45,377 bases of DNA, taken from contig NZ_JAMYDV010000021.1 of assembly GCF_024128855.1 (NCBI RefSeq), forward strand, positions 1 to 45,377. The letters are read 5' to 3'. Positions 20,863 through 36,525 of the stretch are shown here, piece after piece (position 1 is the stretch's first letter; every line of letters begins with the position of its first letter). Source of the stretch: Rhodovulum tesquicola. GTDB lineage: Bacteria > Pseudomonadota > Alphaproteobacteria > Rhodobacterales > Rhodobacteraceae. The position numbers and the translations under genes were made by a program. The notes beneath the pieces were generated by a model. That model ran no database searches and was not told the origin of the DNA. It saw only the letters and a program-made list of their open reading frames with translations.

Positions 20863-20889
20863 GCGCAATCCCGACGCGCGTAATGGAAA

Positions 20890-21643: not shown

Positions 21644-21655
21644 GGATCTCGTTCC

Positions 21656-21883
21656 TTATTTCACGGCGTAGGGCAGCAAGGCGAGGAAGCGGGCGCGCTT
21701 GATCGCGCGCGACAGCTCGCGCTGCTTCTTGGCCGAGACGGCGGTGATGCGCGAGGGCACGATCTTGCCCCGCTCGGAGATGTAGCGCTGCAGCAGGCGC
21801 ACGTCCTTGTAGTCGATCTTGGGCGCGTTCTCGCCCGAGAACGGACAGACCTTGCGGCGGCGGAAAAACGGTTTTGCGGCCAT
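21656..21883 (-). CDS. rpsR: Ribosomal protein bS18
   Basis: A 75-residue bS18, which binds the 30S platform next to bS6. The family signature is intact ([53 protein letters not shown] split by position). It lies between rpsF (29 bases) and rplI (12 bases) in the standard operon order. Size and composition are normal. Confidence 0.98.
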
Positions 21884-21912
21884 GGGTTAGGTTCCTCCTG
21901 GCAGGCTTTGGA

Positions 21913-22275
21913 TCAGCGACGCTCGCGGCGGTCGCCGCGTTCACCACGCTCTTCGCGCTTCTGCATCTGCGCCGAGGGACCTTCTTCATGGGCCTCGACC
22001 TTGACGGTCAGCACGCGCATCACGTCGTCATGCAGCCGCATCAGGCGTTCCATCTCCTGGACGGCGGGCGCGGGTGCGTCGGTGCGCAGGAAGGCGTAAT
22101 GCCCCTTGCGGTTCTTGTTGATCTTGAAGGCCATCGTCTTGACGCCCCAATACTCGTGCTCGACGATCTTGCCGCCGTTATCCGCGAGAATGGCACCGAA
22201 ATGTTCGATAAGGCCCTCGGCCTGCGTGTTGGACAAGTCCTGACGCGCGATGAACACATGCTCGTAAAGCGGCAT
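21913..22275 (-). CDS. rpsF: Ribosomal protein bS6
   Basis: A 120-residue bS6, partner of bS18 in the 30S subunit. The core (MPLYEHVFIARQDLS, WGVKTMAFKINKNRKGHY, then AFLRTD) is canonical. The C-terminus is a charged Arg/Glu-rich tail (REERGERGDRRERR), common in alphaproteobacterial bS6. The start at 22275 is fixed by homology although the frame is open far upstream. It is the first gene of the operon, with a promoter at 22385-22412 and a leader of about 100 bases where bS6:bS18 autoregulation could act; I did not identify the specific stem. Confidence 0.97.
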   Translation of the reverse strand: MPLYEHVFIARQDLSNTQAEGLIEHFGAILADNGGKIVEHEYWGVKTMAFKINKNRKGHYAFLRTDAPAPAVQEMERLMRLHDDVMRVLTVKVEAHEEGPSAQMQKREERGERGDRRERR

Positions 22276-22384
22276 GCTGTCTCCAGTCCTGTTACGGGTG
22301 CGCTTCAAAGGGCGGGTCCGAAGGTCTTCCGCCTCCCGCCCACGAGAGGCCGCACCGATCACGTTCGTTGCGGAAGACCTGCGC

Positions 22385-22412
22385 CTTATACAGATGGAAC
22401 CGCGCGATGCAA
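22385..22412 (-). promoter_or_regulatory. Sigma-70 promoter of rpsF-rpsR-rplI
   Basis: On the minus strand TTGCAT (22412-22407) and TATAAG (22390-22385) are separated by 16 bases. It lies 110 bases upstream of the rpsF start and is the best promoter match in the gap. Confidence 0.6.
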
Positions 22413-22536
22413 GCCCGCCGCCGCCGATCATGGGCCTGCCGCGGGACCGCCCGCAAATCTGCTCCTGTCCGGCCCATTGCTGCCGTTTTCCCGCGAGAGG
22501 GTCGTGGCATCCGTTGCAAGGGAGCATGCGACCGAC

Positions 22537-23175
22537 ATGAGGGCCGGCCTTGAAAACCGGGAGGAGCGCGTTTCCGCACGCGCGGAGATCGCGTTGCCGG
22601 GGGTGACCGAGACGCGGTGGGGCTATGTGGTCATCGCCGGCGGAGCGGTCTCCCGCAATGCCGGCGCGTTCGAGCGCGCGGCATGGATCGGCGGTCTGGC
22701 ACTTCTGTCGGCGGTCGGCGCGCTTTGGATTGTGCTGCCCTTGCTGGGGTTTTTCGACCTGGGGGCGCTGGTGGCACCGAGCGGTGGGTTGGCCGTGGCG
22801 GGACTGGCGCTGTGCTGGCTGGCCGAGCGCGGATTTCTCGAAGAGGTGCAGGTCGACCTTGAGGCACGATCCTTGCGCTGCACCCTGAGCAATGCGCGCG
22901 GCGGGTTGCGCATCCGGCGGGAGGTGGCCTTCGACGAGGTCGGCTCGGTCTTCGTGCAGCGCGCCGAACGGCCGGGGCAGCCCTCCAAGCTGTTCGTGCG
23001 GGTGGGGACGGGCGACGACCTGATCGAGGTCGCGCGCGGGCGCGAGGCCGTTCTGACGGTTCTTCAGACCCGAATGGCGCGCGATCTTCAGGGATCGAGC
23101 CTGCGAAAGGCGAATCCGGGACGCCGGACGCGGCGTCGCCGCGGCCTTGCCCGGCCCTTGACCCACGCGGCCTGA
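22537..23175 (+). CDS. Membrane protein of unknown function
   Basis: A 212-residue protein with two membrane helices (about 45-75 and 83-100) between a short hydrophilic N-terminus and a soluble C-terminal region. The C-terminal part (VQVDLEARSLRCTLSNARGGLRI) looks like a small beta domain, similar in pattern to PH-like membrane proteins, but that is a guess. The last 25 residues are very basic (GRRTRRRRGLARP). The ATG at 22537 is my choice; an AGGGAG lies 13 bases upstream, and a GTG at 22504 is in frame. It is divergent from the rpsF operon. Confidence 0.6.
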   Translation: MRAGLENREERVSARAEIALPGVTETRWGYVVIAGGAVSRNAGAFERAAWIGGLALLSAVGALWIVLPLLGFFDLGALVAPSGGLAVAGLALCWLAERGFLEEVQVDLEARSLRCTLSNARGGLRIRREVAFDEVGSVFVQRAERPGQPSKLFVRVGTGDDLIEVARGREAVLTVLQTRMARDLQGSSLRKANPGRRTRRRRGLARPLTHAA

Positions 23176-23238
23176 GCGGTCTGGTCTGTCCGCGACGAGG
23201 GAACTAGGCTTGCGGCGACCGAAAATCAGGGGCCGTGC

Positions 23239-24162
23239 ATGCTGCGAGTGTTCTCCGGGCGTCCGATCACCAAGCTGGGCCTGACGCCGCCTGCCCCCTG
23301 CGCGGGGCGATCGGGACTTGCGCTGGTGCTGATCGTCCGGAACGAGGAGCGCCATATCGGCGAATGGGCGAAATTTCATGCACAGGCCGGCGCGGCCCAT
23401 GTCTTTGTCTATGACAACGGCTCGACCGACGCGACGATTTCGCGTCTGGCCGAGGTCCTGGGCGCGCGTCTGACGGTGATCCCCTGGGACCAGAAGCTGT
23501 GGGATGCCGGGACCGGCCGCGAGATCCACAACCAGGTTCTGGCCTATGCCCATGCGCTGCGCAATTTCGGCGGGCGGTTCCGCTGGATGGCCTGCATTGA
23601 TGCCGACGAGTTTCTGGTGCCCCGGCGCGCGGAGAGCCTGGAGGGCGCGCTGGCGCATCTGGGAGATATTCCCAGTGTGTCGCTGCCCTGGCACAACTTC
23701 GGACGGAACGGGCATGCGACGCCGCCCGAAGGTGGGGTTGTGGCGAACTACACGCGCCGCGCGGCCGATCCGCTGAGCGGGGTCCGCGGGGTGACGAATT
23801 TCAAGACGATCGTGGATGCGACCCGGGTGACGGCGCTGAAGGTGCATAGTGTCGAGATCGACGGGCAGGACGTGACCTGGAACGACCGGGGCGAGCGGGC
23901 GAGCCTGAAGGGGCGTTTCGCGCGCGGCTTCTATTCGGCGGATCATCTGCAGTTGAACCACTATTACGCACGCTCCGAGGCGGAGCTGGCGGCCAAGATC
24001 GCGCGGGGATCGAACCAGAGCGTGGCGGCCGCGCGCCACGCCGCGCGGGTGCGGCGCAATGTGGCCAATATCGAGGCCAGCGAGATCGAGGACCGCTGTG
24101 CCATCGACTTCCTGGACCGGCTCCGCGGCGCGAGGTCGCCTGACTTTTCCGCCGACTTGTGA
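23239..24162 (+). CDS. GT92-type (DUF23) glycosyltransferase
   Basis: A 307-residue cytoplasmic glycosyltransferase of the GT-A fold. After a short N-terminus it shows LVLIVRNEERHIGEWAKFH (29-47), YDNGSTDAT (58-66), the metal-binding DADEF (121-125) and the C-terminal QLNHYYARSEAEL pattern with a following K-I-A-R-G, all typical of the GT92/DUF23 group found in Rhodobacterales. No membrane segment is visible. It probably modifies a polysaccharide or glycolipid; donor and acceptor are unknown. It stands alone between a membrane protein and fabD. Confidence 0.85.
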   Translation: MLRVFSGRPITKLGLTPPAPCAGRSGLALVLIVRNEERHIGEWAKFHAQAGAAHVFVYDNGSTDATISRLAEVLGARLTVIPWDQKLWDAGTGREIHNQVLAYAHALRNFGGRFRWMACIDADEFLVPRRAESLEGALAHLGDIPSVSLPWHNFGRNGHATPPEGGVVANYTRRAADPLSGVRGVTNFKTIVDATRVTALKVHSVEIDGQDVTWNDRGERASLKGRFARGFYSADHLQLNHYYARSEAELAAKIARGSNQSVAAARHAARVRRNVANIEASEIEDRCAIDFLDRLRGARSPDFSADL

Positions 24163-24216
24163 AGCCCCCGCTTAGCCGATAGACCACGCCGAAATCGGCG
24201 AGCGAGGGGACAAAAC

Positions 24217-25152
24217 ATGCGCGCATTCGTGTTTCCGGGTCAGGGAGCGCAGACCATCGGGATGGGCAGGGCGCTGGCCGATGCCTATCCTCTCGCGCGC
24301 GAAGTGTTCGAGGAGGTGGACGAGGCGCTGGGCGAGAAGCTCTCGGCGCTGATCTGGGAGGGCGATCAGGACGAATTGACGCTGACCCGGAACGCGCAGC
24401 CGGCGCTGATGGCGACCTCGATGGCGACGATGGCGGCGCTGGGTGCCGAGGGCGTCACGGTCAATGCGGCGGCTTTCGTGGCGGGCCATTCGCTGGGCGA
24501 ATATTCGGCGCTGTGCGCGGCGGGGGCGATCAGCCTGGCCGATACCGCGCGGCTGTTGCGGCTGCGCGGCGAGGCGATGCAGGCGGCGGTTGCGGTGGGC
24601 GAGGGCGCCATGGCGGCGATCCTGGGGCTTGATCTGGAGGCGGTGCAGGCGGTGGCCGCGGCCGCGGCCGAGGGGCAGGTCGTGCAGGCCGCCAATGACA
24701 ACGATCCGGCGCAGGTCGTGATCTCGGGCCACAAGGCGGGCGTAGAGCGGGCGGTCGCGCTGGCGCAGGAGCGGGGTGCCAAGCGGGCGGTGATGCTGCC
24801 CGTATCCGCGCCCTTCCATTGCGCGCTGATGGAGCCTGCGGCCCGGGTCATGGCCGAGCGTCTGGCCGAGGTAACGATCGAGGAGCCGCTGGTGCCGGTG
24901 GTGGCCAATGTGCGCGCCCATGGTGTCAGCGATCCCGACGAGATCCGCGCGCTGCTGATCGAGCAGGTGACGGGCGCGGTGCGCTGGCGGGAATCGGTCG
25001 CGTGGATGGCGGCGCAAGGTGTCACCGAGATCTGGGAGATCGGCGCGGGCAAGGCGCTGTCGGGCATGATCCGCCGGATCGCGCGCGACGTCGCGACGCG
25101 GCAGGTCGGACTGCCCGACGAGGTGACGGCAGCCGTGGACAGCATGAACTGA
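24217..25152 (+). CDS. fabD: Malonyl-CoA:ACP transacylase
   Basis: A 311-residue enzyme that loads malonate onto acyl carrier protein for fatty acid synthesis. The nucleophile S92 lies in GHSLGEY, the oxyanion motif FPGQGAQ opens the protein, the Arg that binds the malonyl carboxylate is in LLRLRGEAM, and the catalytic His is in APFHCALM. All are present. A GCGAGGGGACAA ribosome binding region precedes the ATG. It is 10 bases upstream of fabG, in the standard fab cluster. Confidence 0.97.
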   Translation: MRAFVFPGQGAQTIGMGRALADAYPLAREVFEEVDEALGEKLSALIWEGDQDELTLTRNAQPALMATSMATMAALGAEGVTVNAAAFVAGHSLGEYSALCAAGAISLADTARLLRLRGEAMQAAVAVGEGAMAAILGLDLEAVQAVAAAAAEGQVVQAANDNDPAQVVISGHKAGVERAVALAQERGAKRAVMLPVSAPFHCALMEPAARVMAERLAEVTIEEPLVPVVANVRAHGVSDPDEIRALLIEQVTGAVRWRESVAWMAAQGVTEIWEIGAGKALSGMIRRIARDVATRQVGLPDEVTAAVDSMN

Positions 25153-25162
25153 GGAGGGGGAC

Positions 25163-25900
25163 ATGTTCGATCTGAGCGGAAAATGCGCGCTGGTGACCGG
25201 CGCGTCGGGTGGCATAGGGGCCGAGATCGCGCGGGCGCTGCATGCGCGGGGTGCGGTTGTGGGCCTGTCGGGGACGCGCGAGGCGCCGCTGCGCGAGTTG
25301 GCGGCCGAACTGGGCGAGCGCGCCCATGTGCTGCCCTGCGACCTGTCTGATCCGGAGGCGGTCGAGGCGCTGCCTAAGGCGGCCATCGAGGCGATGGGGG
25401 CGCTGGACATTCTGGTGAACAATGCCGGGATCACGCGCGACACGCTGTTCATGCGGCTGAAGGACGAGGACTGGCAGGCAGTGATCGACGTGAACCTGAC
25501 CGCGGCGATGCGGCTGTGCCGCGGCGCGGTGCGGGGCATGATCAAGGCGCGCTGGGGCCGGATCGTCAACATCACGTCGGTCGTGGGGACCACGGGCAAC
25601 CCGGGACAGGCGAATTACTGTGCGGCCAAGGCCGGGCTGGTGGGCCTGTCGAAATCGCTGGCCCAGGAGGTCGCGGCGCGGGGGATCACGGTGAACTGTG
25701 TCGCGCCGGGCTTCATCGCGACGGCGATGACCGACAAGCTGACCGATGAGCAGAAGGCCGGGATCCTGGGTGCGGTGCCGGTGGGCGCCATGGGCACGCC
25801 CGCCGACATTGCCGCGGCGGTGGTCTATCTGGCCAGTTCCGAGGCCGGTTACGTCACCGGCGCCACGCTGCATGTCAATGGCGGGATGGCCATGGTCTGA
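25163..25900 (+). CDS. fabG: 3-oxoacyl-ACP reductase
   Basis: A 245-residue short-chain dehydrogenase that reduces 3-oxoacyl-ACP with NADPH. The TGASGGIG nucleotide motif is at 12-19, NNAG at 86-89, and the catalytic S139, Y152, K156 with N111 are all in place. The C-terminal GGMAMV ending is typical of FabG. It follows fabD by 10 bases with a GGAGGGGG site, so the two are certainly co-transcribed. acpP follows after a 207-base gap with its own promoter. Confidence 0.97.
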   Translation: MFDLSGKCALVTGASGGIGAEIARALHARGAVVGLSGTREAPLRELAAELGERAHVLPCDLSDPEAVEALPKAAIEAMGALDILVNNAGITRDTLFMRLKDEDWQAVIDVNLTAAMRLCRGAVRGMIKARWGRIVNITSVVGTTGNPGQANYCAAKAGLVGLSKSLAQEVAARGITVNCVAPGFIATAMTDKLTDEQKAGILGAVPVGAMGTPADIAAAVVYLASSEAGYVTGATLHVNGGMAMV

Positions 25901-25952
25901 GGGCGCTTGGACCGGCCCCGGATCCGGGTTTCGGTCTGCGACGGGAAAGCGT

Positions 25953-25980
25953 TTGCCAAGAACATGCGATGTGTTATAGG
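25953..25980 (+). promoter_or_regulatory. Sigma-70 promoter of acpP
   Basis: TTGCCA (25953-25958) and TATAGG (25975-25980) are separated by 16 bases. The start would leave a leader of about 120 bases that contains a TCCCGC-TTT-GCGGGA hairpin at 26023-26037. A separate promoter fits the high expression needed for acyl carrier protein. Confidence 0.6.
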
Positions 25981-26107
25981 CGGCGCGAGTTCGTCGGGGG
26001 GCGTTCCCCGCGCTTGCGAGAGTCCCGCTTTGCGGGATCGGTGGTGGCCCCTCGTGGCCGACAGAACAAAGACGGGCAAATCGCCTGAACAAATGTGAGG
26101 AACAGAC

Positions 26108-26341
26108 ATGAGCGACATCGCGGATCGCGTTAAGAAGATTGTCGTGGAGCACCTGGGTGTCGAAGAGGACAAGGTGATCGAGAGCGCCTCGTTCATCGAC
26201 GATCTGGGCGCGGACTCCCTGGACACGGTCGAACTGGTCATGGCCTTCGAGGAGGAGTTCGGCATCGAGATCCCGGATGATGCTGCCGAAACCATCCAGA
26301 CCTTCGGCGATGCGGTGAAGTTCATCCAGGAAGCCGCCTGA
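26108..26341 (+). CDS. acpP: Acyl carrier protein
   Basis: A 77-residue acidic carrier protein for fatty acid synthesis. The phosphopantetheine attachment Ser is S37 in [10 protein letters not shown]. Helix II and the acidic [14 protein letters not shown] segment are canonical. A GAGGAA ribosome binding site lies 7-12 bases upstream of the ATG. It lies between fabG and fabF, with its own promoter and an intrinsic terminator 25 bases downstream, so it can be expressed as a single-gene transcript. Confidence 0.98.
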
Positions 26342-26365
26342 GGCTTTCGAGCGAACCTGTTGCGG

Positions 26366-26396
26366 AGCGGCGCCCCCTGGGGCGCCGCTTTCGTTT
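26366..26396 (+). terminator. Intrinsic terminator of acpP
   Basis: AGCGGCGCCCC-CT-GGGGCGCCGCT is an 11-bp perfect stem followed by TTCGTTT, 25 bases after the acpP stop. Confidence 0.85.
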
Positions 26397-26438
26397 CGGG
26401 AGGTCGGGTGCCCGTTCGGCGGCGTTGTTGCGCCCGGC

Positions 26439-26468
26439 TTGCCGAGCGCGGAAAAAACGCGGTATCAG
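26439..26468 (+). promoter_or_regulatory. Possible fabF promoter
   Basis: TTGCCG (26439-26444) and TATCAG (26463-26468) are separated by 18 bases, between the acpP terminator and the fabF start. The match is moderate, but the terminator upstream implies that fabF needs a promoter. Confidence 0.4.
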
Positions 26469-26508
26469 GAGCGCCGGATAGGCCGTGGGCGAGAGCGAGG
26501 AGAGGCGG

Positions 26509-27771
26509 ATGCGTCGAGTGGTAGTCACGGGGCTGGGGATGGTCACGCCCCTGGCCTGCGGGGTCGAGGAAAGCTGGTCGCGGCTGATCGCCGGGCAGTC
26601 TGGCGTGGGTCCGATCACGCGGTTCGACGCGTCGCGCGTGGCGACCACCTATGCCGCCGAGATCCCGTTCGGCGACGGGACGGACGGCACGTTCAACCCC
26701 GATGACTGGATGGATCCCAAGGAGCGGCGCAAGGTCGACGATTTCATCCTGTACGGCATGGCCGCGGCCACCCAGGCGGTGAAGGATTCGGGTTGGGAGC
26801 CGAAGACCGACGAGGACCGCGAGCGCACCGGCGTGATGATCGGCTCGGGGATCGGCGGGCTGTCGGCGATTGCCGATACGGCGGTTCTGTTGCAGGAGAA
26901 GGGACCCCGGCGGGTATCGCCCTTCTTCATCCCGTCCGCGCTGATCAACCTTGTCTCGGGGCAGGTCTCGATCCGGTTCGGGTTCAAGGGTCCGAACCAT
27001 GCGGTCGTCACGGCCTGTTCGACCGGGGCGCATGCCATCGGCGATGCAGCCCGTCTGATCCAGTGGGGCGATGCCGACGTGATGGTGGCGGGGGGCGCGG
27101 AAAGCCCGATCTCCGAGATCGGGATCGCCGGGTTCAATGCCTGCAAGGCGCTGTCCACGAAGCGCGGAAACGATCCGCAATCGGCCTCGCGGCCCTGGGA
27201 TGCGGACCGGGACGGCTTCGTGATGGGCGAGGGTGCGGGGATCGTGATCCTTGAGGAATACGAGCATGCCAGGGCGCGCGGTGCGAAGATCTATGCCGAG
27301 GTGCTGGGGTATGGCATGTCGGGCGACGCCTATCACATCACCGCGCCGTCCGAGGATGGCGAGGGCGGGTATCGGTCGATGGCTGCGGCGCTGAAGCGCG
27401 CGGGTCTGTCGCCTGCGGACGTGGATTACATCAACGCGCATGGCACGTCGACCATGGCCGACACGATCGAGCTGGGCGCTGTCGAGCGTCTGCTGGGCGC
27501 TGCGGCTGCCGCCACCACCATGTCGTCCACCAAGTCCTCCATCGGGCATCTGCTGGGCGCGGCAGGCGCGGTGGAAGCGATCTTCTGCGTTCTGTCGCTG
27601 CGCGATCAGGTGGCGCCGCCCACGCTGAACCTGGACACGCCACCCGAGGGAGTGCGCATCGACCTGGCGCCCAAGGCGGCGCGCCAGCGAGAGATCGCGG
27701 TCGCGCTGTCAAACTCGTTCGGGTTCGGTGGCACCAATGCGACGCTGGTCATGGGGCGCGGTGATCGGTGA
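26509..27771 (+). CDS. fabF: 3-oxoacyl-ACP synthase II
   Basis: A 420-residue condensing enzyme that elongates acyl-ACP with malonyl-ACP. The nucleophile C170 (VVTACSTGAH), H311 (NAHGTSTMADT) and H347 (SSIGHLLGAAG) form the Cys-His-His triad. The ATG at 26509 has a GAGGAGAGG site and starts at the usual MRRVVVTGLG; an in-frame GTG at 26485 is less likely. The gene is coupled to mltG by an ATGA overlap. It belongs to the fab cluster but is separated from acpP by a terminator. Confidence 0.97.
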   Translation: MRRVVVTGLGMVTPLACGVEESWSRLIAGQSGVGPITRFDASRVATTYAAEIPFGDGTDGTFNPDDWMDPKERRKVDDFILYGMAAATQAVKDSGWEPKTDEDRERTGVMIGSGIGGLSAIADTAVLLQEKGPRRVSPFFIPSALINLVSGQVSIRFGFKGPNHAVVTACSTGAHAIGDAARLIQWGDADVMVAGGAESPISEIGIAGFNACKALSTKRGNDPQSASRPWDADRDGFVMGEGAGIVILEEYEHARARGAKIYAEVLGYGMSGDAYHITAPSEDGEGGYRSMAAALKRAGLSPADVDYINAHGTSTMADTIELGAVERLLGAAAAATTMSSTKSSIGHLLGAAGAVEAIFCVLSLRDQVAPPTLNLDTPPEGVRIDLAPKAARQREIAVALSNSFGFGGTNATLVMGRGDR

Positions 27772-28919
27772 TGTGGCGGTCGGTCGCCTCGAATGCGCTG
27801 ACGCTGTTCATCGCGCTGTTTCTGTTGGCGGGCGGCCTGTTGCTTTGGGGCAAGCGGCAATACGAGGGCACCGGGCCTCTGGCCGATGCGATCTGCCTTC
27901 GGGTCGAGTCCGGCGCGACGATGGCTGGGCTTTCGCGCCAGCTTGAGGGGCAGGGGGCGGTCTCGAATGCCGCGATCTTCCGGCTGGGGGCGAAATACAC
28001 GGAGAAAGCCGATCTGTTGAAGGCCGGCAGCTTTCTGATTCCGCCCGGCTCCTCGATGAAGGAGATCGTCGACATCGTGACGCGCGGCGGGCGGTCCACA
28101 TGCGGCAGCGAGTTGAATTTCAGGATCGGGGTAGTCAGCGCACAATTGCAGCTGCGCGAGGTCGATCCCGGCACGGGGCGCTATGTGGAAGTGCTTGCCT
28201 TCGATCCGGCGGCGGGCGAGATCCCCGAGGACTATGCCGAATTGCGCAATGCAACCGACCTGCGGTTCCGGGTGACGCTGGCCGAAGGGGTCACGAGCTG
28301 GCAGGTCGTCGAGGAACTGAAATCGGCGGATTTTCTCGATGGCGAGGTGGCTGACCTGCCTGCCGAGGGCAGTCTGGCACCTGACAGCTACGAAGTGCAG
28401 CCGGGCATGGCGCGAAGCGATCTGATCGCCGAGATGCAGCGACGGCAGGCGGCGATTCTGGACGATCTCTGGGCGCGGCGGGCCGATGACTTGCCGATCA
28501 CGACGCCGGAGGAGGCGCTGATCCTGGCCTCGATCGTCGAGAAGGAGACCGGCGTGCCGGAAGAACGCGGCCAGGTGGCCAGTGTCTTCGTGAACCGGCT
28601 GCGGCAGGGGATGCGGTTGCAGACCGATCCTACTGTGATCTACGGGGTGACACAGGGCAGGGAACCGCTGGGCCGCGGCATCCGGCAAAGCGAGTTGCGC
28701 CGCGAGACGCCCTGGAACACCTATGTCATCGACGGGTTGCCGCCGACGCCGATCGCCAATCCGGGACGGGCCTCGATCGAGGCGGCGCTGAACCCGGAAG
28801 ATACGGATTTCCTGTTCTTTGTCGCCGACGGGACGGGGGGGCATGCCTTTGCCCGGACGCTGGCCGAGCATAACCAGAACGTGGCGCGCTGGCGCCAGAT
28901 CGAGGCCGGGCGTCAGTAG
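27768..28919 (+). CDS. mltG: Endolytic murein transglycosylase MltG
   Basis: A 383-residue inner-membrane protein with one N-terminal helix (about 9-27) and a periplasmic YceG-like domain. The catalytic Glu lies in SIVEKETG near residue 257, followed by the family segments VFVNRLRQGMRLQTDPT and the NPGRASIEAALNP region. MltG cuts nascent glycan strands and sets their length. It overlaps fabF by 4 bases. Between about residues 105 and 165 it carries an insertion (CGSELNFRIGVVSAQLQLRE) also seen, as far as I recall, in other Rhodobacterales copies. The GTA promoter begins just after its stop. Confidence 0.95.
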   Translation: MMWRSVASNALTLFIALFLLAGGLLLWGKRQYEGTGPLADAICLRVESGATMAGLSRQLEGQGAVSNAAIFRLGAKYTEKADLLKAGSFLIPPGSSMKEIVDIVTRGGRSTCGSELNFRIGVVSAQLQLREVDPGTGRYVEVLAFDPAAGEIPEDYAELRNATDLRFRVTLAEGVTSWQVVEELKSADFLDGEVADLPAEGSLAPDSYEVQPGMARSDLIAEMQRRQAAILDDLWARRADDLPITTPEEALILASIVEKETGVPEERGQVASVFVNRLRQGMRLQTDPTVIYGVTQGREPLGRGIRQSELRRETPWNTYVIDGLPPTPIANPGRASIEAALNPEDTDFLFFVADGTGGHAFARTLAEHNQNVARWRQIEAGRQ

Positions 28920-28926
28920 TCTTCTG

Positions 28927-28941
28927 TTAACCCTTTGTTAA
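28927..28941. promoter_or_regulatory. CtrA binding site upstream of the GTA promoter
   Basis: TTAACCCTTTGTTAA is a perfect TTAA-N7-TTAA CtrA box. It ends 11 bases before the -35 element at 28953, so a bound activator would cover about -61 to -47. CtrA is required for GTA expression in Rhodobacter capsulatus. Binding here is inferred from the motif. Confidence 0.7.
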
Positions 28942-28952
28942 AGATAAACTTC

Positions 28953-28981
28953 TTGACTCTGCGCGCGCTCTGATCTATACT
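28953..28981 (+). promoter_or_regulatory. Near-consensus sigma-70 promoter before the GTA cluster
   Basis: TTGACT (28953-28958) and TATACT (28976-28981) are separated by exactly 17 bases. It is the strongest promoter match noticed in the window. The predicted start is near 28988, about 105 bases before g1, and a terminator lies in between. Confidence 0.75.
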
Positions 28982-29009
28982 TTCAGGCAAGCTGGAAGAC
29001 GTGGGTTAG

Positions 29010-29041
29010 CGGCCCGGGGGTATCCCCCGAGGCCGTTTTTT
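29010..29041 (+). terminator. Intrinsic terminator between the GTA promoter and g1
   Basis: CGGCC plus CGGGGG pairs with CCCCCG and GGCCG around a TAT loop, giving 11 pairs with one bulged A, followed by six T residues (29036-29041). It could end the fabF-mltG transcript. However, it also lies only about 25-55 bases after the start of the promoter at 28953, so that promoter should yield a short RNA unless termination is overridden. Confidence 0.88.
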
Positions 29042-29092
29042 CGTGTCTTCTCCTGCGACGGGGGGCCGGCAGGACAGGCAGGCAAGGACAGC

Positions 29093-29446
29093 ATGGGAAC
29101 GATATCTGCCCCGCAAGTGGGCGAAACGGCTGCCCGGGCGGTGCTTGAGGAAGCCGAAGAGCATTACAGGCGCACGATACGCGCCTTGAATGGGATCATC
29201 GAAGAAGTCGAGGCCGGCAAGACAGAGCGTGCCCGCGCGTTACGGGGCGCGTTGACCGACCTCGGCAAGGCGGTACAGACCGCTTTCGACGAAAGGTTAC
29301 GAGTTGGAAAGCTTCTCCGAGACGAAGCGGGCGGCGCCTGCGACTATGCCCTTGACCTCGATGAGGCGCGTGTTGAGGTCGGGCGCCGACTGGATCGCCT
29401 GCGCGTCACGCGACGAGCAGACGGCCTTTCTGAACAGCCTGGATGA
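29093..29446 (+). CDS. GTA g1, small terminase subunit
   Basis: A 117-residue mostly helical protein matching RcGTA g1 (rcc01682), the small terminase. In GTAs this subunit has lost the specific DNA recognition of phage TerS, so host DNA is packaged at random. Two long helices are predicted (TAARAVLEEAEEHYRRTIRA and the LTDLGKAVQTAFDERLR segment). The ATG follows CAAGGACAGC. Its 3' 143 bases overlap the 5' end of the large terminase frame, depending on the g2 start chosen. It is the first gene of the cluster, 51 bases after the leader terminator. Confidence 0.85.
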   Translation: MGTISAPQVGETAARAVLEEAEEHYRRTIRALNGIIEEVEAGKTERARALRGALTDLGKAVQTAFDERLRVGKLLRDEAGGACDYALDLDEARVEVGRRLDRLRVTRRADGLSEQPG

Positions 29447-30716
29447 CGGCACACTGATGGCGCTGCCGTTCCTGTTCGAGTTCTGGGCGTTGCCGCATCA
29501 ATTGCCGCCCGAGGGGGACTGGCGCGCCTGGGTGGTGCTGGGCGGGCGCGGTGCGGGCAAGACGCGGGCGGGCGCCGAGTGGGTCCGGGCGGAGGTCGAG
29601 GGGCCGCGCCCGCTGGATCCGGGCCGGTCGCGCCGGGTGGCGCTGGTGGGCGAGACGGTCGACCAGGTCCGCGAGGTGATGGTGTTCGGCGATAGCGGGC
29701 TGATGGCATGTTCGCCACCTGACCGTCGCCCGCGTTGGGAAGCAACCCGACGGCGGCTGGTGTGGCCAAACGGAGCGATCGCCCAGGTGTTTTCGGCGCA
29801 TGACCCCGAATCCCTGCGTGGGCCGCAATTCGACGCGGCCTGGGCGGACGAACTGGCGAAGTGGAAAAAGGCTGAAGAGACCTGGGACATGCTGCAGTTC
29901 GGGCTGCGGCTGGGGATGTCGCCCCGGCAGTGTATCACCACCACGCCGCGCAACGTGGGTGTATTGCGGTCGATCCTGGCGCTTCCGACGACTGTCGTCA
30001 CCCACGCGCCGACCGAGGCGAACCGGGCCAACCTTGCGGCCTCGTTTCTCGACGCGGTCCGCACGCGATATGCTGGAACACGGCTGGGACGGCAGGAACT
30101 GGACGGGGTGCTGCTCGATGAATCCGAGGGTGCGCTTTGGTCGCTGGCGGCGATCGAAGCGGCCCGGATCGACAGGGCGCCGGAACTCGACCGGGTTGTG
30201 GTCGCGGTCGATCCGCCGGTCACGGGGCATGGCGGTTCGGACGAATGCGGGATCATGGTCGTGGGGGTGCAGAGCAAGGGGCCGCCGCAGGAATGGCGCG
30301 CGGTGGTGCTGGCGGATGCCAGCCTTGCGGGTGTGGCGCCGACGGTCTGGGCGCAGGCAGCGATCGAGGCAATGGAACGCTTCGGCGCCGACCGGCTGGT
30401 CGCCGAGGTCAACCAGGGTGGCGATCTGGTCGAGACCGTGATCCGGCAACTCGACCCGCTGGTGCCGTTCCGCGCGGTGCGTGCTTCGCGCGGCAAGGCC
30501 GCCCGGGCCGAGCCGGTGGCCGCCCTTTACGAACAGGGGCGGATCAAGCATCTGCCCGGCCTGGCCATACTGGAGGACCAGATGTGTCGCATGACCTCGC
30601 GCGGGTATGAGGGGCGTGGCAGCCCCGACCGTGTGGATGCCCTGGTCTGGGCGATCCATGAACTGATGATTACCCCCGCCGCCCATTGGCGGCGTCCGAG
30701 GGTGCGCAGTCTCTAG
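29304..30716 (+). CDS. GTA g2, large terminase (DNA packaging motor)
   Basis: Up to 470 residues. The ATPase domain has Walker A GGRGAGKT (near 80-87) and Walker B with the catalytic Glu in FDAAWADELAKW. The RNase H-like nuclease domain has its Asp residues in VVAVDPPVTG and GSPDRVDALVWA. It drives headful packaging into the procapsid. The start is uncertain: a TTG at 29304 has an AAAGG site 9 bases upstream, while ATGs at 29346 and 29361 lack clear sites and give a shorter protein closer to family length. It overlaps g1. Two hairpins follow the stop. Confidence 0.93.
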   Translation: MESFSETKRAAPATMPLTSMRRVLRSGADWIACASRDEQTAFLNSLDDGTLMALPFLFEFWALPHQLPPEGDWRAWVVLGGRGAGKTRAGAEWVRAEVEGPRPLDPGRSRRVALVGETVDQVREVMVFGDSGLMACSPPDRRPRWEATRRRLVWPNGAIAQVFSAHDPESLRGPQFDAAWADELAKWKKAEETWDMLQFGLRLGMSPRQCITTTPRNVGVLRSILALPTTVVTHAPTEANRANLAASFLDAVRTRYAGTRLGRQELDGVLLDESEGALWSLAAIEAARIDRAPELDRVVVAVDPPVTGHGGSDECGIMVVGVQSKGPPQEWRAVVLADASLAGVAPTVWAQAAIEAMERFGADRLVAEVNQGGDLVETVIRQLDPLVPFRAVRASRGKAARAEPVAALYEQGRIKHLPGLAILEDQMCRMTSRGYEGRGSPDRVDALVWAIHELMITPAAHWRRPRVRSL

Positions 30717-30724
30717 AGAATCAC

Positions 30725-30794
30725 GGCCGCGACGACGCGGCCCTTGCGGAATGGCGAGGCCCGGTCCCGGAAAACCCCGGGGCGCGGGCCTTTT
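30725..30794 (+). repeat. Tandem hairpins between g2 and g3, the second terminator-like
   Basis: The first is GGCCGCG-ACGA-CGCGGCC (30725-30742), a perfect 7-bp stem 8 bases after the g2 stop. The second pairs AGGCCCG (30757-30763) with CGGGCCT (30785-30791) and CCCGG with CCGGG inside, then TTTT to 30794. They could attenuate transcription or protect the downstream mRNA. Confidence 0.6.
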
Positions 30795-30843
30795 CCTTGG
30801 GCCCTTGACGGGCAGCGACAGCGAAACCGGAGGAGCTTTGCCC

Positions 30844-32019
30844 ATGAAACTGAATATCTTCCGCCGTGCCGAAACGCGGGCGCCGGAGGCGAAAGCGTCT
30901 GCCACCGGCCCGGTGATCGCCTGGGCGGGGTCAGGGCGCGTGGCCTGGAGTCCGCGCGATACCGTCTCGCTGACCCGCAACGGCTTTGTCGGCAACCCGG
31001 TGGGGTTTCGCGCGGTCAAGCTGATCGCCGAGGCGGCGGCGGCGCTGCCGCTGGTCTGCCAGGACACCGAACGGCGCTACGAGACCCACCCGATGCTCGA
31101 TCTGATCGCGCGGCCAAATCCGGCACAGGGACGGGCCGAGCTGTTCGAGACGCTTTACGGCCAGTTGCTGCTGTCCGGGAACGCCTATCTCGAAGCGGTC
31201 GGCGATGAGGGCGGGATGCCATTCGAACTGCATGTGTTGCGATCGGACCGGATGCACCTGGTTCCCGGGCGCGATGGCTGGCCGGTCGCCTATGATTACA
31301 CCGTCGGCGCGCGCAAGCATCGGTTCGACATGACGGTCGACCTGCCGCCGGTCTGCCATATCAAGAGCTTCCATCCCCAGGACGATCATTACGGGCTGTC
31401 GCCGATGCAGGCGGCGGCGACCGCGATCGACGTTCACAATTCGGCCTCGCGCTGGTCCAAGGCGCTTCTGGACAACGCGGCGCGGCCCTCCGGCGCGATC
31501 GTCTATCGCGGGACGGATGGCAATTCGACCCTGAGCGAAGACCAGTATGCGCGGCTTCAGGACGAGATGCTCAGCTATCATCAGGGGGCGGCGAATGCCG
31601 GGCGCCCGATGCTTCTGGAGGGCGGGCTGGACTGGAAGCCGATGGGCTTTTCTCCCTCGGACATGGAGTTCCACCGCACCAAGGAGGCCGCGGCGCGGGA
31701 AATCGCGACGGCCTTCGGCGTGCCCCCGATGATGCTGGGGATCCCGGGGGATGCGACCTACGCGAACTATCAGGAGGCCAACCGCGCCTTCTATCGGCTG
31801 ACGATCCTGCCGATGGTGGCCAAGGTCGCCGGTGCCGTGGCCGAGTTCCTGTCGCGCTTTGCAGGAGAGACAGTGAGCCTCAAGCCCGATCTCGATCAGG
31901 TGCCGGCGCTGGCGGCCGAACGCGATGCGCAATGGCTGCGTATCGCCGGCGCGGATTTCCTGACCGAGGTCGAGAAACGTGCCCTTCTGGGTCTGCCCGC
32001 CCGGCCGGAGGGTGAATGA
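30844..32019 (+). CDS. GTA g3, portal protein
   Basis: A 391-residue HK97-family portal that forms the dodecameric DNA gate at one capsid vertex. The typical segments are visible: GNPVGFRAVKLIAEAAAALP, DLIARPNP, LSGNAYLE, then GLSPMQAAATAI and FGVPPMMLGIPGDATYANY split along the chain. I chose the ATG at 30844 because of the GGAGGAG site 9 bases upstream; the frame is open 31 codons further. It follows tandem hairpins and is coupled to g3.5 by an ATGA overlap. Confidence 0.95.
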   Translation: MKLNIFRRAETRAPEAKASATGPVIAWAGSGRVAWSPRDTVSLTRNGFVGNPVGFRAVKLIAEAAAALPLVCQDTERRYETHPMLDLIARPNPAQGRAELFETLYGQLLLSGNAYLEAVGDEGGMPFELHVLRSDRMHLVPGRDGWPVAYDYTVGARKHRFDMTVDLPPVCHIKSFHPQDDHYGLSPMQAAATAIDVHNSASRWSKALLDNAARPSGAIVYRGTDGNSTLSEDQYARLQDEMLSYHQGAANAGRPMLLEGGLDWKPMGFSPSDMEFHRTKEAAAREIATAFGVPPMMLGIPGDATYANYQEANRAFYRLTILPMVAKVAGAVAEFLSRFAGETVSLKPDLDQVPALAAERDAQWLRIAGADFLTEVEKRALLGLPARPEGE

Positions 32020-32258
32020 AACCCCCGGCCGAGAGGTCGGGCTCCAGGTTTCTCTATGCGCCCTTCGAAGTGGCGAATGCGCGGATCGACGCCAATGAAC
32101 GCGTCTGGGAGGAGCGCTGGACGGCGCTCGAATTCCGGCTCGTGCGGATCGAGACGGCGCTCGAGCGGCTGGAACGACGAATGTGGCTGACCGTCTACGG
32201 CGTGGTGGCGGTGATCTTGACGGAAGGCGTGGCATCGCTGCTGGCGGCCTCGCCGTGA
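32016..32258 (+). CDS. GTA g3.5, head formation protein (rcc01685 family)
   Basis: An 80-residue protein with a helical N-terminal part (NARIDANERVWEERWTALE, RLVRIETALERLERR) likely to form a coiled coil, and one C-terminal membrane helix (about 57-78). It matches the position and pattern of RcGTA g3.5, annotated as a GTA head formation protein of the rcc01685 family. The ATG overlaps the g3 stop, so expression is coupled to the portal. The membrane helix is unusual for a head protein and suggests membrane-associated assembly. Confidence 0.85.
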   Translation: MKPPAERSGSRFLYAPFEVANARIDANERVWEERWTALEFRLVRIETALERLERRMWLTVYGVVAVILTEGVASLLAASP

Positions 32259-32272
32259 AAAGGGGAGTTCGG

Positions 32273-32836
32273 ATGATCGGATATGACAGGGATACCGGGC
32301 TGGAGCGCAAGTTCTGCCCGCCGGACGCGCCGCTGGCGCTGGCCGAGGGCGCGGTGATCGAGGGCTATGCCTCGTTGTTCGGCGCGACCGACCAGGGCGG
32401 CGACGTCGTGCAGGCGGGGGCCTATGGTGCCTGCCTGAAGCGGATGGCCACCGAAGGGCGTCGGGTGAAGATGCTGTGGCAGCATGATCCCGCCCAGCCC
32501 ATCGGCATCTGGGACGAGGTCCGGGAGGATGGCCGCGGGCTTTACGTCAAGGGGCGGTTGTTGCCCGAGGTCGTGCGCGCCCGCGAGGCGGCCGCCCTTG
32601 TTTCGGCGGGCGCCATCGACGGCTTGTCGATCGGCTATCGTACCAAGCGGGCCGAACGGGATGCAAGCGGGCGCCGGCTTCTTGCGGAGCTGGAGCTTTG
32701 GGAGGTGTCGCTCGTGACCTTCCCGATGCTTGCCGAAGCGCGGGTTGGCGCCAAGGGGGGGGACCCCGCCGAGGTGCTCTTGCGCGAACTGGCGGAGGCC
32801 TTTTCAGGCGCCCGCCGCATGTTGGCCGAGGGCTGA
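32273..32836 (+). CDS. GTA g4, prohead protease
   Basis: A 187-residue HK97-type (U35, PF04586) maturation protease that removes the N-terminal scaffold part of the capsid protein. The catalytic His H71 (MLWQHDPAQPIG) and Ser S119 (GAIDGLSIGYR) are present, with the ELWEVSLVTFPM strand near the C-terminus. The ATG at 32273 has an AGGGGAG site. It lies directly upstream of its substrate gene g5 (43-base gap), the usual phage order. Confidence 0.94.
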   Translation: MIGYDRDTGLERKFCPPDAPLALAEGAVIEGYASLFGATDQGGDVVQAGAYGACLKRMATEGRRVKMLWQHDPAQPIGIWDEVREDGRGLYVKGRLLPEVVRAREAAALVSAGAIDGLSIGYRTKRAERDASGRRLLAELELWEVSLVTFPMLAEARVGAKGGDPAEVLLRELAEAFSGARRMLAEG

Positions 32837-32879
32837 TCGCCAAAGGCCGCGAGGACCGATCTCAACAAGGACAAGCGAG

Positions 32880-34070
32880 ATGACCGAGACCGAGACCAAG
32901 TCCGGCGGGAGCCAAGCCCCGGCGGTGGAAGTGAAGCAGGCGTTGAACTCTTTCCTGAGCGATTTCAGAGAGTTTCAGGCCGATGTGAAATTCCGACTTC
33001 AACAACAGGAAGAGCGACTGACCATGCTGGACCGGAAATCCCAAATGACCTCCGCCGGGCGCCCCGCCCTGTCGCGTGCCGCCGATCTCGAAGCGCCGCA
33101 CAAGAAGGCCCTTGCCGCCTATCTGCGCAACGGCGACGATGACGGGCTGCGCAGCCTGGAAATCGAGGGCAAGGCGCTGGGTACCTCGGTCGCGGCCGAG
33201 GGTGGCTATCTCGTCGATCCCGAGACCTCGGATACGATCAAGTCGGTGCTGCGCTCGACGGCCTCGATCCGCTCGATCGCGCAGGTGGTCACCGTCGAGG
33301 CGACCTCGTTCGATGTGCTGGTGGACCATTCGGACATCGGTTCGGGCTGGTCGACCGAGACCGCCAACCAGATCGAGACCGGCACGCCGCAGATCGAGCG
33401 CGTGTCGATCCCGCTGCACGAGCTTTCGGCCATGCCCAAGGCCAGCCAGCGGCTGCTGGACGATTCCGCGTTCGACATCGAGGGCTGGTTGGCCGCGCGC
33501 ATCGCCGACAGGTTCGCCCGCGCCGAGGCGGCGGCGTTCATCAATGGCGACGGGGTCGACAAGCCCACGGGGTTCCTGTCGCATCCGCACGTTCCCGAAG
33601 GTGCCTGGAACTGGGGCAGCCTTGGCTATGTCGCAACGGGGTCGGATGGCGATTTCGACGCGGTGTCGCCGGCCGATGCAATCCTCGACCTCGTCTACTC
33701 GCTGGGTGCGGAATACCGCGCGGGTGCCACTTTCTTGATGAATTCGCGCACGGCGGGCGCGGTGCGCAAGATGAAGGATGCCGATGGCCGCTTCCTGTGG
33801 TCGGACGGGCTGTCGGCGGGCGAGCCTGCGCGGCTTCTGGGCTATCCGGTCTTGATCGCCGAGGACATGCCCGATATCGCCTCGGGCACGGTGGCGATCG
33901 CCTTCGGCGATTTCCAGGCGGGTTATACCGTTGCCGAGCGCCCCGACCTGCGGGTGCTGCGCGACCCGTTCTCGGCCAAGCCGCATGTGCTGTTCTATGC
34001 GACCAAGCGCGTCGGCGGAGATGTCAGCGACTATGCCGCGATCAAGCTTCTGAGATTCGCCACCGCCTGA
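32880..34070 (+). CDS. GTA g5, major capsid protein
   Basis: A 396-residue HK97-fold capsid protein. Residues 1 to about 98 form a charged helical scaffold region (QADVKFRLQQQEERLTMLD) expected to be cut by g4; the likely site is K98/A99 before LGTSVAAEGG, comparable to the RcGTA cleavage. The mature part has the typical GYLVDPETSDTI, SAMPKASQRLLDD and FLMNSRTAGAVRK segments. An AAGGA site precedes the ATG at 32880. A long inverted repeat follows the stop and may raise the yield of this most abundant protein. Confidence 0.96.
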   Translation: MTETETKSGGSQAPAVEVKQALNSFLSDFREFQADVKFRLQQQEERLTMLDRKSQMTSAGRPALSRAADLEAPHKKALAAYLRNGDDDGLRSLEIEGKALGTSVAAEGGYLVDPETSDTIKSVLRSTASIRSIAQVVTVEATSFDVLVDHSDIGSGWSTETANQIETGTPQIERVSIPLHELSAMPKASQRLLDDSAFDIEGWLAARIADRFARAEAAAFINGDGVDKPTGFLSHPHVPEGAWNWGSLGYVATGSDGDFDAVSPADAILDLVYSLGAEYRAGATFLMNSRTAGAVRKMKDADGRFLWSDGLSAGEPARLLGYPVLIAEDMPDIASGTVAIAFGDFQAGYTVAERPDLRVLRDPFSAKPHVLFYATKRVGGDVSDYAAIKLLRFATA

Positions 34071-34115
34071 TGGCCTGACCGAGACGTTGCCTCCGGCTGA
34101 CCCCGGGGACGACCA

Positions 34116-34185
34116 GGCGCGCGCCGGACCTATCCGGTCTGTCCAGCTGTTCCCTCCGTCGGGACAGGCCGGGTCGGCGCGCGCC
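34116..34185. repeat. Long imperfect inverted repeat between capsid gene and g6
   Basis: The left arm begins GGCGCGCGCCGGACC and ends GGTCTGTCC (34116-34144); the right arm begins GGGACAGGCC and ends GGCGCGCGCC (34161-34185). About 25 base pairs form with small bulges around a 16-base loop. There is no T-run, so it is more like an mRNA-stabilising or processing hairpin than a terminator. Confidence 0.75.
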
Positions 34186-34221
34186 GACATTCAGCGGGGG
34201 GCCTAGCGGAGAAATGACGAG

Positions 34222-34821
34222 ATGATGCTGATCGAGCAGACGACGCTGCCCGCCGCCGCGCTGCCTCTGGAGCGGTTCAAGGCGCATCTGCGCCTTGGCA
34301 CCGGGTTTTCCGATGATGGGGCAGAGGACGCGTTGCTGGAGGCATTCCTGCGGGCCTCCATGGCGGCGATCGAGGAACGGACCGCCAAGGTGCTTCTGGC
34401 GCGCAGCTTTACCTGGGGGGTGAACGGTTGGCGCGATGGAGCGCGTGAACCGCTGCCGGTGGCGCCCGTGACCCGCATCGCGGAGCTTCGGGTCTTCGAC
34501 CGCAACGGCACCGTCTGCGTCTGCGATCCGGCCACCTATCGGCTGGAGCGGGACGGAACCTATCCCAGGCTGGCCGCGGTTCGGACCTGCCTGCCGACGA
34601 TCCCGCAGGGGGGCGGCGCCGAGGTCGATTTCGATGCCGGTTTCGGTGCGGAGTGGGACAGCGTTCCTGCCGATCTGGGGCAGGCGGTCTTCCTGCTGGC
34701 GGCGCATTACCACGAGCATCGGCACGAGGCGTCTACGGGCGAAGGCCACATGCCGTTCGGCGTTGCGGCGTTGACCGAACGCTGGCGACGGCTGCGTGTG
34801 ACGGCCGGAGGGGTGGCATGA
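34222..34821 (+). CDS. GTA g6, head-tail connector (adaptor)
   Basis: A 199-residue connector of the phiE125 gp8 / HK97 gp6 type, which attaches below the portal ring. The helical N-terminal part (ALPLERFKAHLRLG, EDALLEAFLRASMAAIEE) and the C-terminal helix (ADLGQAVFLLAAHYHEHR) are typical. The start is one of two adjacent ATGs (34222, 34225). It begins 151 bases after g5, past the inverted repeat, and overlaps g7 by ATGA. Confidence 0.9.
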   Translation: MMLIEQTTLPAAALPLERFKAHLRLGTGFSDDGAEDALLEAFLRASMAAIEERTAKVLLARSFTWGVNGWRDGAREPLPVAPVTRIAELRVFDRNGTVCVCDPATYRLERDGTYPRLAAVRTCLPTIPQGGGAEVDFDAGFGAEWDSVPADLGQAVFLLAAHYHEHRHEASTGEGHMPFGVAALTERWRRLRVTAGGVA

Positions 34822-35159
34822 AACGCCCGCCAGTTCTGAACCGTCGCCTTGTCCTTGAGGCGGCCCAACGGCTGCCCGACGGGGCCGGCGGGTTTTCCGA
34901 GACATGGGTCGAGCTTGGAGTGATCTGGGCCGAGATCATGCCGCGCACGGGCGGCGAGCGTGCGGGGCAGGAACTGACCCTGACGCGGGTGCCCTATCAC
35001 GTCGTCGTGCGCGCCGCACCGCCGGGTTCGGCCCGGCGGCCCGAGCCCGACGAGCGGTTTCGCGAAGGCGCGCGGATCTTTCACATCCGGGCGGTGACCG
35101 AAGCGGATCGGAGCGGGCACTACCTGCTCTGCTTTGCAGAAGAGGAGAAACCGGCATGA
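34818..35159 (+). CDS. GTA g7, head closure protein
   Basis: A 113-residue small beta-barrel protein like SPP1 gp16, which closes the connector after DNA packaging. It has the expected pattern: an N-terminal RRLVLEAAQRLPDGAGGF strand-turn, the WAEIMP core and the FREGARIFHIRAVTE C-terminal part. The ATG at 34818 overlaps the g6 stop and its own stop overlaps the g8 start, so the three are translationally coupled in a fixed ratio. Confidence 0.88.
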   Translation: MKRPPVLNRRLVLEAAQRLPDGAGGFSETWVELGVIWAEIMPRTGGERAGQELTLTRVPYHVVVRAAPPGSARRPEPDERFREGARIFHIRAVTEADRSGHYLLCFAEEEKPA

Positions 35160-35566
35160 GTTACGGCGCGGCGGCCGCTCTGCAGGCGGCGATTTTCCAG
35201 CGACTGGCGGGTGATCCCGCCCTGGCCGCGCAGGTGGGCGAGGCGATCTATGACGTGGTGCCGGCGGGCGATCTGCCGCTGACCTATGTCAGCCTGGGCC
35301 CCGAGGAGGTGCGCGACGCCTCGGACAAGACCGGGGACGGGGCGCTGCATCTGTTCACGATCACCATCGTCAGCCGACAGGCCGGGTTCGCCCAGGCCAA
35401 GGCGGCGGCCGCGGCGGTTTCCGACGCCCTGGTGGACGCGCCGCTGGCGATGTCTCGCGGGCGGATCGTGGGCCTGTGGTTCGACCGGGCCCGCGCCCGG
35501 CGGGTGGGCACCCAGGGCGAGCGCCGCATCGACCTGCGCTTCGCAGCCCGGGTCGAGGACGACTGA
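35156..35566 (+). CDS. GTA g8, tail terminator (DUF3168)
   Basis: A 136-residue DUF3168 protein that caps the tail tube and joins it to the head. It starts with the typical AAAALQAAIFQRLAGDPALA helix and a strand set ending YVSLGPEEVRDASDKT, followed by LHLFTITIVSR. The ATG overlaps the g7 stop, and g9 follows after 20 bases with its own ribosome binding site. Length is normal for the family. Confidence 0.9.
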   Translation: MSYGAAAALQAAIFQRLAGDPALAAQVGEAIYDVVPAGDLPLTYVSLGPEEVRDASDKTGDGALHLFTITIVSRQAGFAQAKAAAAAVSDALVDAPLAMSRGRIVGLWFDRARARRVGTQGERRIDLRFAARVEDD

Positions 35567-35586
35567 ACACCTTATCTGGAGTAAGC

Positions 35587-36003
35587 ATGATGACGGCGCA
35601 ATACGGCAAGGATCTTCTCATCAAGCTCGACCTGACCGGAGCCGGTCAGTTCGAGACCATTGCGGGGTTGCGAGCCACCCGCATCAGTTTCAACGCCGAA
35701 CAGGTGGATGTGACCAGCCTGGAAAGCGAGGGCGGTTGGCGCGAGCTCCTGGCAGGCGCGGGGGTGAAATCGGCCGGAATCTCCGGCGGTGGCGTGTTCA
35801 AGGATGCCGAGACCGACGCGCGCGCGCGGCAGGTGTTCTTCGATTCCGAGACGCCGGCTTTCCAGGTCGTGATCCCGGGCTTCGGCGTGGTCGAGGGGCC
35901 GTTTCAGGTCACCTCGCTGGAGTATTCCGGCAGCCATAACGGCGAGGCCACTTACGAGCTGACGCTGGCCTCGGCCGGGGCGCTGGCCTTTACGGCGTTC
36001 TGA
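35587..36003 (+). CDS. GTA g9, major tail tube protein
   Basis: A 138-residue tail tube protein that stacks as hexamers around the tape measure. The pattern GLRATRISFNAEQVDVTSLE, then GVKSAGISGGGVFKD and the C-terminal YELTLASAGALAF, is that of the TIGR02126/RcGTA g9 family. A TCTGGAG site precedes the first of two adjacent ATGs (35587 and 35590). g10 follows after 2 bases. Confidence 0.93.
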   Translation: MMTAQYGKDLLIKLDLTGAGQFETIAGLRATRISFNAEQVDVTSLESEGGWRELLAGAGVKSAGISGGGVFKDAETDARARQVFFDSETPAFQVVIPGFGVVEGPFQVTSLEYSGSHNGEATYELTLASAGALAFTAF

Positions 36004-36005
36004 TC

Positions 36006-36522: not shown

Positions 36523-36525
36523 CCA

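Follow-up and report, generated by a model that had tools for sequence, protein, structure and literature searches.

Among gene transfer agents, RcGTA is the archetype, and the mechanism of its activation by GafA is not yet settled. GafA has been published as an RNA polymerase recruiter acting through omega (PMC9638019), and it bound one of five R. capsulatus probes, covering 76-125 bp 5' of g1 (PMC6363796). GafZ of Caulobacter, a homologue of the C-terminal portion of GafA, is a shown anti-terminator that has a single target promoter and lets some polymerase through both terGTA and rrnB T1; according to the same source, GafA may have such antitermination activity (PMC11150451). That paper describes transcription terminators in a GTA cluster, a finding repeated in PMC13236601, which also cites work on antitermination in the GTA of Bartonella. 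The word 'terminator' is absent from the main text of PMC6363796 and PMC9638019, and a search limited to a subset of open papers met no prior report of the RcGTA leader terminator described below. In phage lambda, the late promoter carries a sigma pause element at +1 to +6, of which A+2G/T+6G is the broken form (PMC4604602), and Q needs a -10-like element plus a site between -35 and -10 (PMC6606751).

Architecture of the promoter and leader in the window

The window is a stretch of 45,377 nt from Rhodovulum tesquicola (contig NZ_JAMYDV010000021.1), in which the GTA cluster is located downstream of fabF and mltG (Table 1). The terminase gene is followed by a portal gene and further ORFs, ending with a 1298-aa protein that bears a GTA TIM-barrel domain. 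The promoter and the hairpin sit between the mltG stop and g1, whose ATG stands where the preliminary description had placed it. Tandem repeats, such as those of Caulobacter terGTA, were not found in 28900-34500.

Table 1. Features of the GTA main promoter, its leader and the adjoining genes (window coordinates)
Feature	Position	Strand	Basis or remark
mltG (YceG family), upstream neighbour	27768..28919	+	Pfam match; reads towards the promoter
TTAA-N7-TTAA CtrA-type box, TTAACCCTTTGTTAA	28927..28941	+	perfect; just 5' of the promoter
-35 element, TTGACT	28953..28958	+	sequence and promoter scan
Spacer, CTGCGCGCGCTCTGATC, 17 nt; candidate GafA (GafZ-like) binding element	28959..28975	+	family consensus approximately tttgCGnaCGgTc
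-10 element, TATACT	28976..28981	+	sequence and promoter scan
Predicted +1 to +6, CAAGCT, -10-like; candidate sigma-dependent pause element	28988..28993	+	A+2, T+6
Rest of conserved initial transcribed region	28994..29007	+	family consensus GGAAGAAGTGGGCA
Outer helix P1, enclosing the terminator	28995..29050	+	28995-29005 pairs with 29040-29050; compensatory changes
Intrinsic terminator	29008..29041	+	stem 29008-29020/29024-29037, A29030 bulged; T-run 29036-29041
Hairpin P3, between terminator and g1	29051..29074	+	6/7 pairs changed on both sides; 83.5% of cells paired
g1	29093..29446	+	ATG at 29093; no Pfam family matched
g2, terminase large subunit	29421..30716	+	Pfam Terminase_6N, Terminase_6C

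The promoter that the preliminary description had read as TTGACT-N17-TATACT, with a predicted start at 28988, is reproduced at 28953-28981; across 20000-39000, with both strands counted, no second site has that score. The same scan returns no promoter of equal score between 29041 and 29093, in keeping with the earlier statement that no other good promoter separates the terminator from g1. Shuffled versions of 20000-39000 yield a mean of 1.2 promoters of that score, so that the single site is not significant. The hairpin and its six Ts also stand as first described, the fold having 13 pairs beside the 11 first given, the last two of the 13 using the first Ts of the T-run. The hairpin is G+C-rich with a loop at 29021-29023, and the fold of 28984-29045 has an energy of -29.3 kcal/mol (z -2.83). 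A simple terminator scan of 20000-39000 gives 10 sites, versus 11.0 in shuffles, and omits the hairpin within 28953-29041, probably because of its bulged A29030. Since both promoter and terminator scans are at chance level in the window, the conclusions depend on cross-genome comparison.

The box just 5' of the promoter fits the CtrA consensus and is a putative CtrA-type site. Such a box occurs within 75 nt 5' of the promoter in 18 of 90 loci, seven of which share one distance to the promoter, give or take one base; across all upstream regions (up to 800 nt each), 18 of the 23 boxes fall in those 75 nt. According to a section title in PMC6363796, CtrA does not bind the RcGTA promoter.

Placement of the terminator across the family

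The family was surveyed with one genome per genus, and the terminase was found at 1e-60 in 263 of 296 genomes. Ninety loci were examined, 30 from the first terminase search, the window's included, and 60 added later (one of the ninety, L019, has only 339 upstream bases). With a 26-nt consensus anchor, which favours loci resembling the consensus, a terminator is called 43-53 nt past the leader start in 80 of these 90 loci, which are related and hence not independent; the other 10 have no call in that interval. The same placement is seen in 78 of the 82 loci having a recognisable leader and -35. By comparison, a terminator falls at 43-53 nt in 71 of 1640 dinucleotide shuffles, and other windows of the same loci give 132 of 4393. 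Additionally, among 80 loci from titled genome records, a set that shares a few genomes with the 90 and was searched with the same anchor, 67 carry the terminator at that placement and 13 have no call. Because the anchor is biased, the test was run again with no anchor, on L002-L031 and L093-L172 (110 loci out of 170 from the family); 90 were found, 20 were not, and five identical copies were removed. Comparison across loci confirms, at the level of sequence, that the promoter-terminator arrangement is beyond chance.

The distances of the T-run to the GTA start and to mltG differ greatly in their spread. Across the 64 loci with mltG upstream, 44-57 nt separate the T-run from the leader hexamer (sd 3.7), and 100-2010 nt separate it from the end of mltG (median 169.5, with an sd of 442 that distant cases drive), the T-run in these analyses being the one with the lowest hairpin energy and sometimes a second U stretch. 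Judged from these distances, the position of the terminator follows the GTA start and not mltG. This bears on the simplest alternative, namely that the hairpin is a plain insulator that only ends fabF-mltG transcripts and guards against leaky GTA expression, with a strong GTA start leaking through it and GafA only recruiting polymerase. The window itself is consistent with such a role, as no other terminator is seen there between the mltG stop and the promoter, and the hairpin therefore probably also ends fabF-mltG transcripts and blocks their read-through; the leader is also retained behind mltG in two loci with no terminase match (L331 and L332). The preliminary description, which had offered this as the simpler reading, is thus partly right for the window, but the reading leaves the placement in other genomes unexplained. 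Of the 90 promoter-terminator loci, 26 gave no match to mltG in the upstream DNA examined (at 10 of these, upstream ORFs match other Pfam families in seven cases, such as M20 peptidase, EamA and SufE, and none in three), and 39 of the 64 loci with mltG have another terminator call before the promoter, a count without shuffle control. An insulator, moreover, would better sit 5' of the promoter. We therefore regard insulation as an unlikely explanation of the family-wide arrangement.

In genera G180 and G128, the leader is kept with no terminase match at 1e-10, and a role apart from the GTA is accordingly possible. It stands behind mltG at 6156-6250 (minus strand) of L331 and at 570-673 of L332, and in L331 a short g1-like start follows it.

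The covariance model of the leader, R1, matches 198 of 296 genera under strict filters and, by overlap of the two lists, 192 of the 263 terminase-bearing genera. Three genomes have two matches and every other positive genome has one, as does that of Rhodovulum tesquicola. The R1 leader can serve as a sequence tag for locating GTA main promoters in this family. The leader pattern was also met in 83 IMG/VR stretches. Among the 80 tested (L243-L322), 60 match GTA or mltG proteins, 59 of them terminase, and hence seem to be bacterial GTA clusters that were catalogued as viral; the other 20, with the exception of L262, were judged by eye to resemble chance matches within coding sequence.

Leader start and RNA structure

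The first six predicted transcribed bases form a -10-like hexamer. In 85 unique loci, chosen by the -35, the TA of the -10 and the terminator and not by the hexamer, NANNNT occurs 34 or 35 nt after the -35 start in 85/85, versus a mean of 1.3% at the other offsets tested; A+2 and T+6 are accordingly present in every locus, in a register that presumes the standard -10-to-start distance, plus or minus one, from a predicted start. The types are CANNNT (78), TANNNT (6) and GAGGCT (1), with [CT]ANNNT in 84/85 and [CT]ANGCT in 82/85. In line with this, TTGA begins 34 or 35 nt 5' of the hexamer in 70/70 loci selected for a good leader. The register is that of the lambda pR' sigma pause element, and we infer that polymerase may pause here likewise. 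G+4 and C+5 are nearly fixed, which is beyond the demands of a -10-like element and is unexplained by pausing alone. A short leader peptide starting within CATGCT was considered and dropped, because of the variation at +3, where 58% of 78 loci have T and 32% have A.

A terminated RNA of about 54 nt, one of the two outcomes that the preliminary description had raised, would be the expected product of the predicted start and terminator. Strong 5' conservation together with a 3' terminator is what a small regulatory RNA would display, and all 16 genera whose TerL match ends near residue 146 have a leader match (adjoining that TerL in at least 13). Nevertheless, it is quite improbable, more so than insulation, that this RNA of about 50 nt is the product that matters: pausing and factor loading would account just as well for the conserved first 20 bases, and in the loci examined the leader lies nearly always just before the GTA genes.

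The leader RNA has a covarying structure. In alignment A1, which holds 70 of the 90 loci (20 were omitted because the anchor was weak or no terminator was called), the terminator stem, P1 and P3 together are paired in 87.0% of cells, with changes on both sides at 18 of 24 pairs. None of 500 shuffles reaches the observed covariation on any of five measures, the rows being related and similarity-selected and the shuffles not correcting for relatedness; slid controls also score lower on every measure. In P1, for example, an A-U pair is replaced by C-G at alignment columns 14/69, and P3 has the family consensus CTCGTGC...GCATGAG. P1 would be able to form only once polymerase reads through the terminator. 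The P1/P2 and P3 hairpins are adjacent in the leader and both covary. The HK022 put-type antitermination RNA consists of two adjacent leader stem-loops that act on polymerase in cis, which the hairpins here may resemble in layout.

The same alignment makes a leader attenuator, in which the 5' sequence GAAGAAGUGGGC would sequester the 3' arm of the terminator together with its U-run and a ligand, protein or RNA would do the switching, the least credible alternative, since its 11-bp pairing is possible in 87.0% of cells but covaries no more than shuffles (392/500 as high; double-change cells 434/500), the terminator and outer helix covary strongly instead, and Rfam returned no match to the leader region. 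This pairing, the one alternative antiterminator fold tested, is accordingly rejected.

Outside the family, 65 loci were inspected, 64 of them from other families. A similar promoter spacer and leader start are present in some (for example L183, L187, L196, L198, L179 and L236). A terminator of -15 kcal/mol or below soon after a promoter-like site is called in 3/4 loci of family f11, 1/1 of f81, 1/1 of f153 and 1/3 of f4, and weaker calls are made in f58 (1/3), f108 (1/2), f148 and f150, the last two judged to be chance; these counts carry no shuffle control, and a missed promoter also gives no call. In f116 (3/3), a terminator was read by eye beside its call. None is called in f9 (0/5) or f103 (0/2), and none was seen by eye in f34 (0/5), to which the script's promoter rule did not apply. 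As f9, f103 and f34 have a GTA TerL and a similar leader start with no terminator called or seen soon after the promoter, the arrangement is not universal, and the pause-like start may predate the placement of the terminator. R1, searched against 26 loci whose motifs were read by eye and by script (25 from other families and L199 of this family), gave no convincing match (best E 0.18).

A separate observation concerns the terminase gene. In 14 of the 16 genera whose TerL match stops near 146 (L326, L327, L328, L329, L334, L336, L338, L339, L340 and L342-L346), terminase residues 1 to about 143 join a g15-like tail protein from residue 639 onward, in frame and at the same place each time; L337 and L341 differ, and some fused frames break later, as in L327. 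The g15-like protein of the window is at 39170-43066. In a tree built from the N-terminal part of the terminase, which is poorly resolved, the 16 are scattered, with 13 changes, at least 7 of them forced, and a shuffled mean of 15.3. Within one genus, the terminase match is cut at 146 in 7 of 41 species and is full length in 30, the tail side having been viewed in G038. The junction is possibly an artefact of the collection. A scan of viral contigs for the junction pattern gave 0 matches and is uninformative, as such contigs are chosen by genes that may be missing from deleted clusters.

GafA and comparison with known systems

The Rhodovulum tesquicola genome encodes one DUF6456 protein (4e-61) of about 364 aa. 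The domain spans residues 219-354, and an N-terminal HTH matches weakly, under its cut-off, a predicted layout that is the one described for GafA. Its Pfam matches are confined to DUF6456 and the weak HTH, with none to a Q protein family; GafA may work like Q but is, by Pfam, no member of a Q family. As a control, the DUF6456 search matches 1 of 14 control genomes, that of Caulobacter vibrioides. By list comparison, the leader is present in 195 of 275 genera with DUF6456 versus 3 of 21 without, a contrast confounded by absent GTAs and incomplete genomes, the 3 exceptions being fragmented genomes.

The candidate GafA element, the promoter spacer, is conserved in sequence across family loci, and its position matches that of the Caulobacter ZBE. 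It is a weak palindrome, perfect over the 8 bp GCGCGCGC only, with a 16-bp stretch 75% palindromic. The spacer consensus CGnACGgTC, together with GTA of the -10, is also similar in layout to the motif bound by AlpA, GGGACG-N5-GGTA, perhaps by coincidence. According to PMC11150451, GafZ resembles AlpA neither in sequence nor in structure.

Rhodobacter capsulatus SP108 (L159) carries TTGACT, TAGAGA and CATGCT, followed by a hairpin with T6; its predicted start is 95 bp and its T6 start 51 bp 5' of the presumed g1 ATG. On this sequence, the published GafA-bound span of 76-125 bp would take in the greater part of the promoter plus roughly 20 bases from the predicted start, and would stop short of the T-run, the published work having used strain SB1003.

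Taken together, we propose, with a probability of roughly 0.7, that the GTA main promoter is a lambda pR'/tR'-like (Q-type) antitermination switch run by GafA. RNA polymerase would start near 28988, and sigma retained on CAAGCT at +1 to +6 would briefly hold it near +16. Through its C-terminal GafZ-like part, GafA would bind the promoter spacer and load onto the paused polymerase. When GafA is absent, transcription would stop about 50 nt downstream, at the hairpin with its T-run, so that a short RNA is made and the particle genes stay silent; when it is present, polymerase would pass the hairpin and later stops and transcribe the whole cluster. Antitermination, as the preliminary description had suggested it, gains strong comparative support from features observed directly, namely the architecture and its conservation, the fixed terminator distance, the covarying stems, the hexamer, the R. 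capsulatus counterpart and the GafA-type gene in the genome, while the start site, the pausing, the termination and the action of GafA as antiterminator are those we infer. GafA recruiting polymerase through omega could suffice.

A stricter form of the antitermination model is that the promoter fires in all cells even where GafA is lacking and is held at the proximal terminator, GafA acting mainly by antitermination and not initiation and loading at a sigma-dependent pause on CANGCT. We hold this tentatively and think it somewhat improbable. A Caulobacter GTA promoter given a near-consensus -35 is active with or without GafYZ, at about sixfold weaker strength (PMC11150451), and the near-consensus -35 here therefore fits GafA-free firing. 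If the stricter form holds, the short RNA would be made in every cell poised to make GTA. If the switch is as proposed, a domesticated phage has kept phage late-gene control logic.

Native lambda tR' lies about 190 nt from the start, so that the terminator here is nearer, and the locus here is a host chromosomal, domesticated element, unlike a lambdoid phage. Shared with lambdoid pR'/tR' and Q are the -10-like element at +1 to +6, the intrinsic terminator ahead of the late genes and, as a candidate, the factor site in the spacer (PMC6606751, PMC4604602). The alpB promoter of P. aeruginosa with AlpA belongs to a host lysis locus that has no GTA genes; there too, promoter and then intrinsic terminator precede the first gene, and the factor site is in the spacer, as is the candidate site here (PMC7969949).

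Caulobacter PgtaT with GafY and GafZ shares with this locus the GTA main promoter, an activator of the DUF6456 family, an element between -35 and -10 (a candidate here) and terminators that the factor must pass (PMC11150451). As described in that source, the Caulobacter terminator consists of three 150-bp repeats after the first gene, whereas here it is a single hairpin about 50 nt from the start and before the first gene; the PgtaT -35 is AATCAT, whereas here it is near consensus; GafY and GafZ are two proteins, whereas here there is one GafA; and the ZBE is a near-perfect palindrome, whereas the spacer here is weakly palindromic. The RcGTA promoter with GafA (PMC6363796, PMC9638019) is the same locus by descent, SP108 having the promoter, the hexamer and the terminator. 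The conserved terminator and pause-like element turn the suggestion of GafA antitermination made in PMC11150451 into a specific, directly testable model, and what is new is, in our best reading, a variant of GTA antitermination with the terminator ahead of the first gene.
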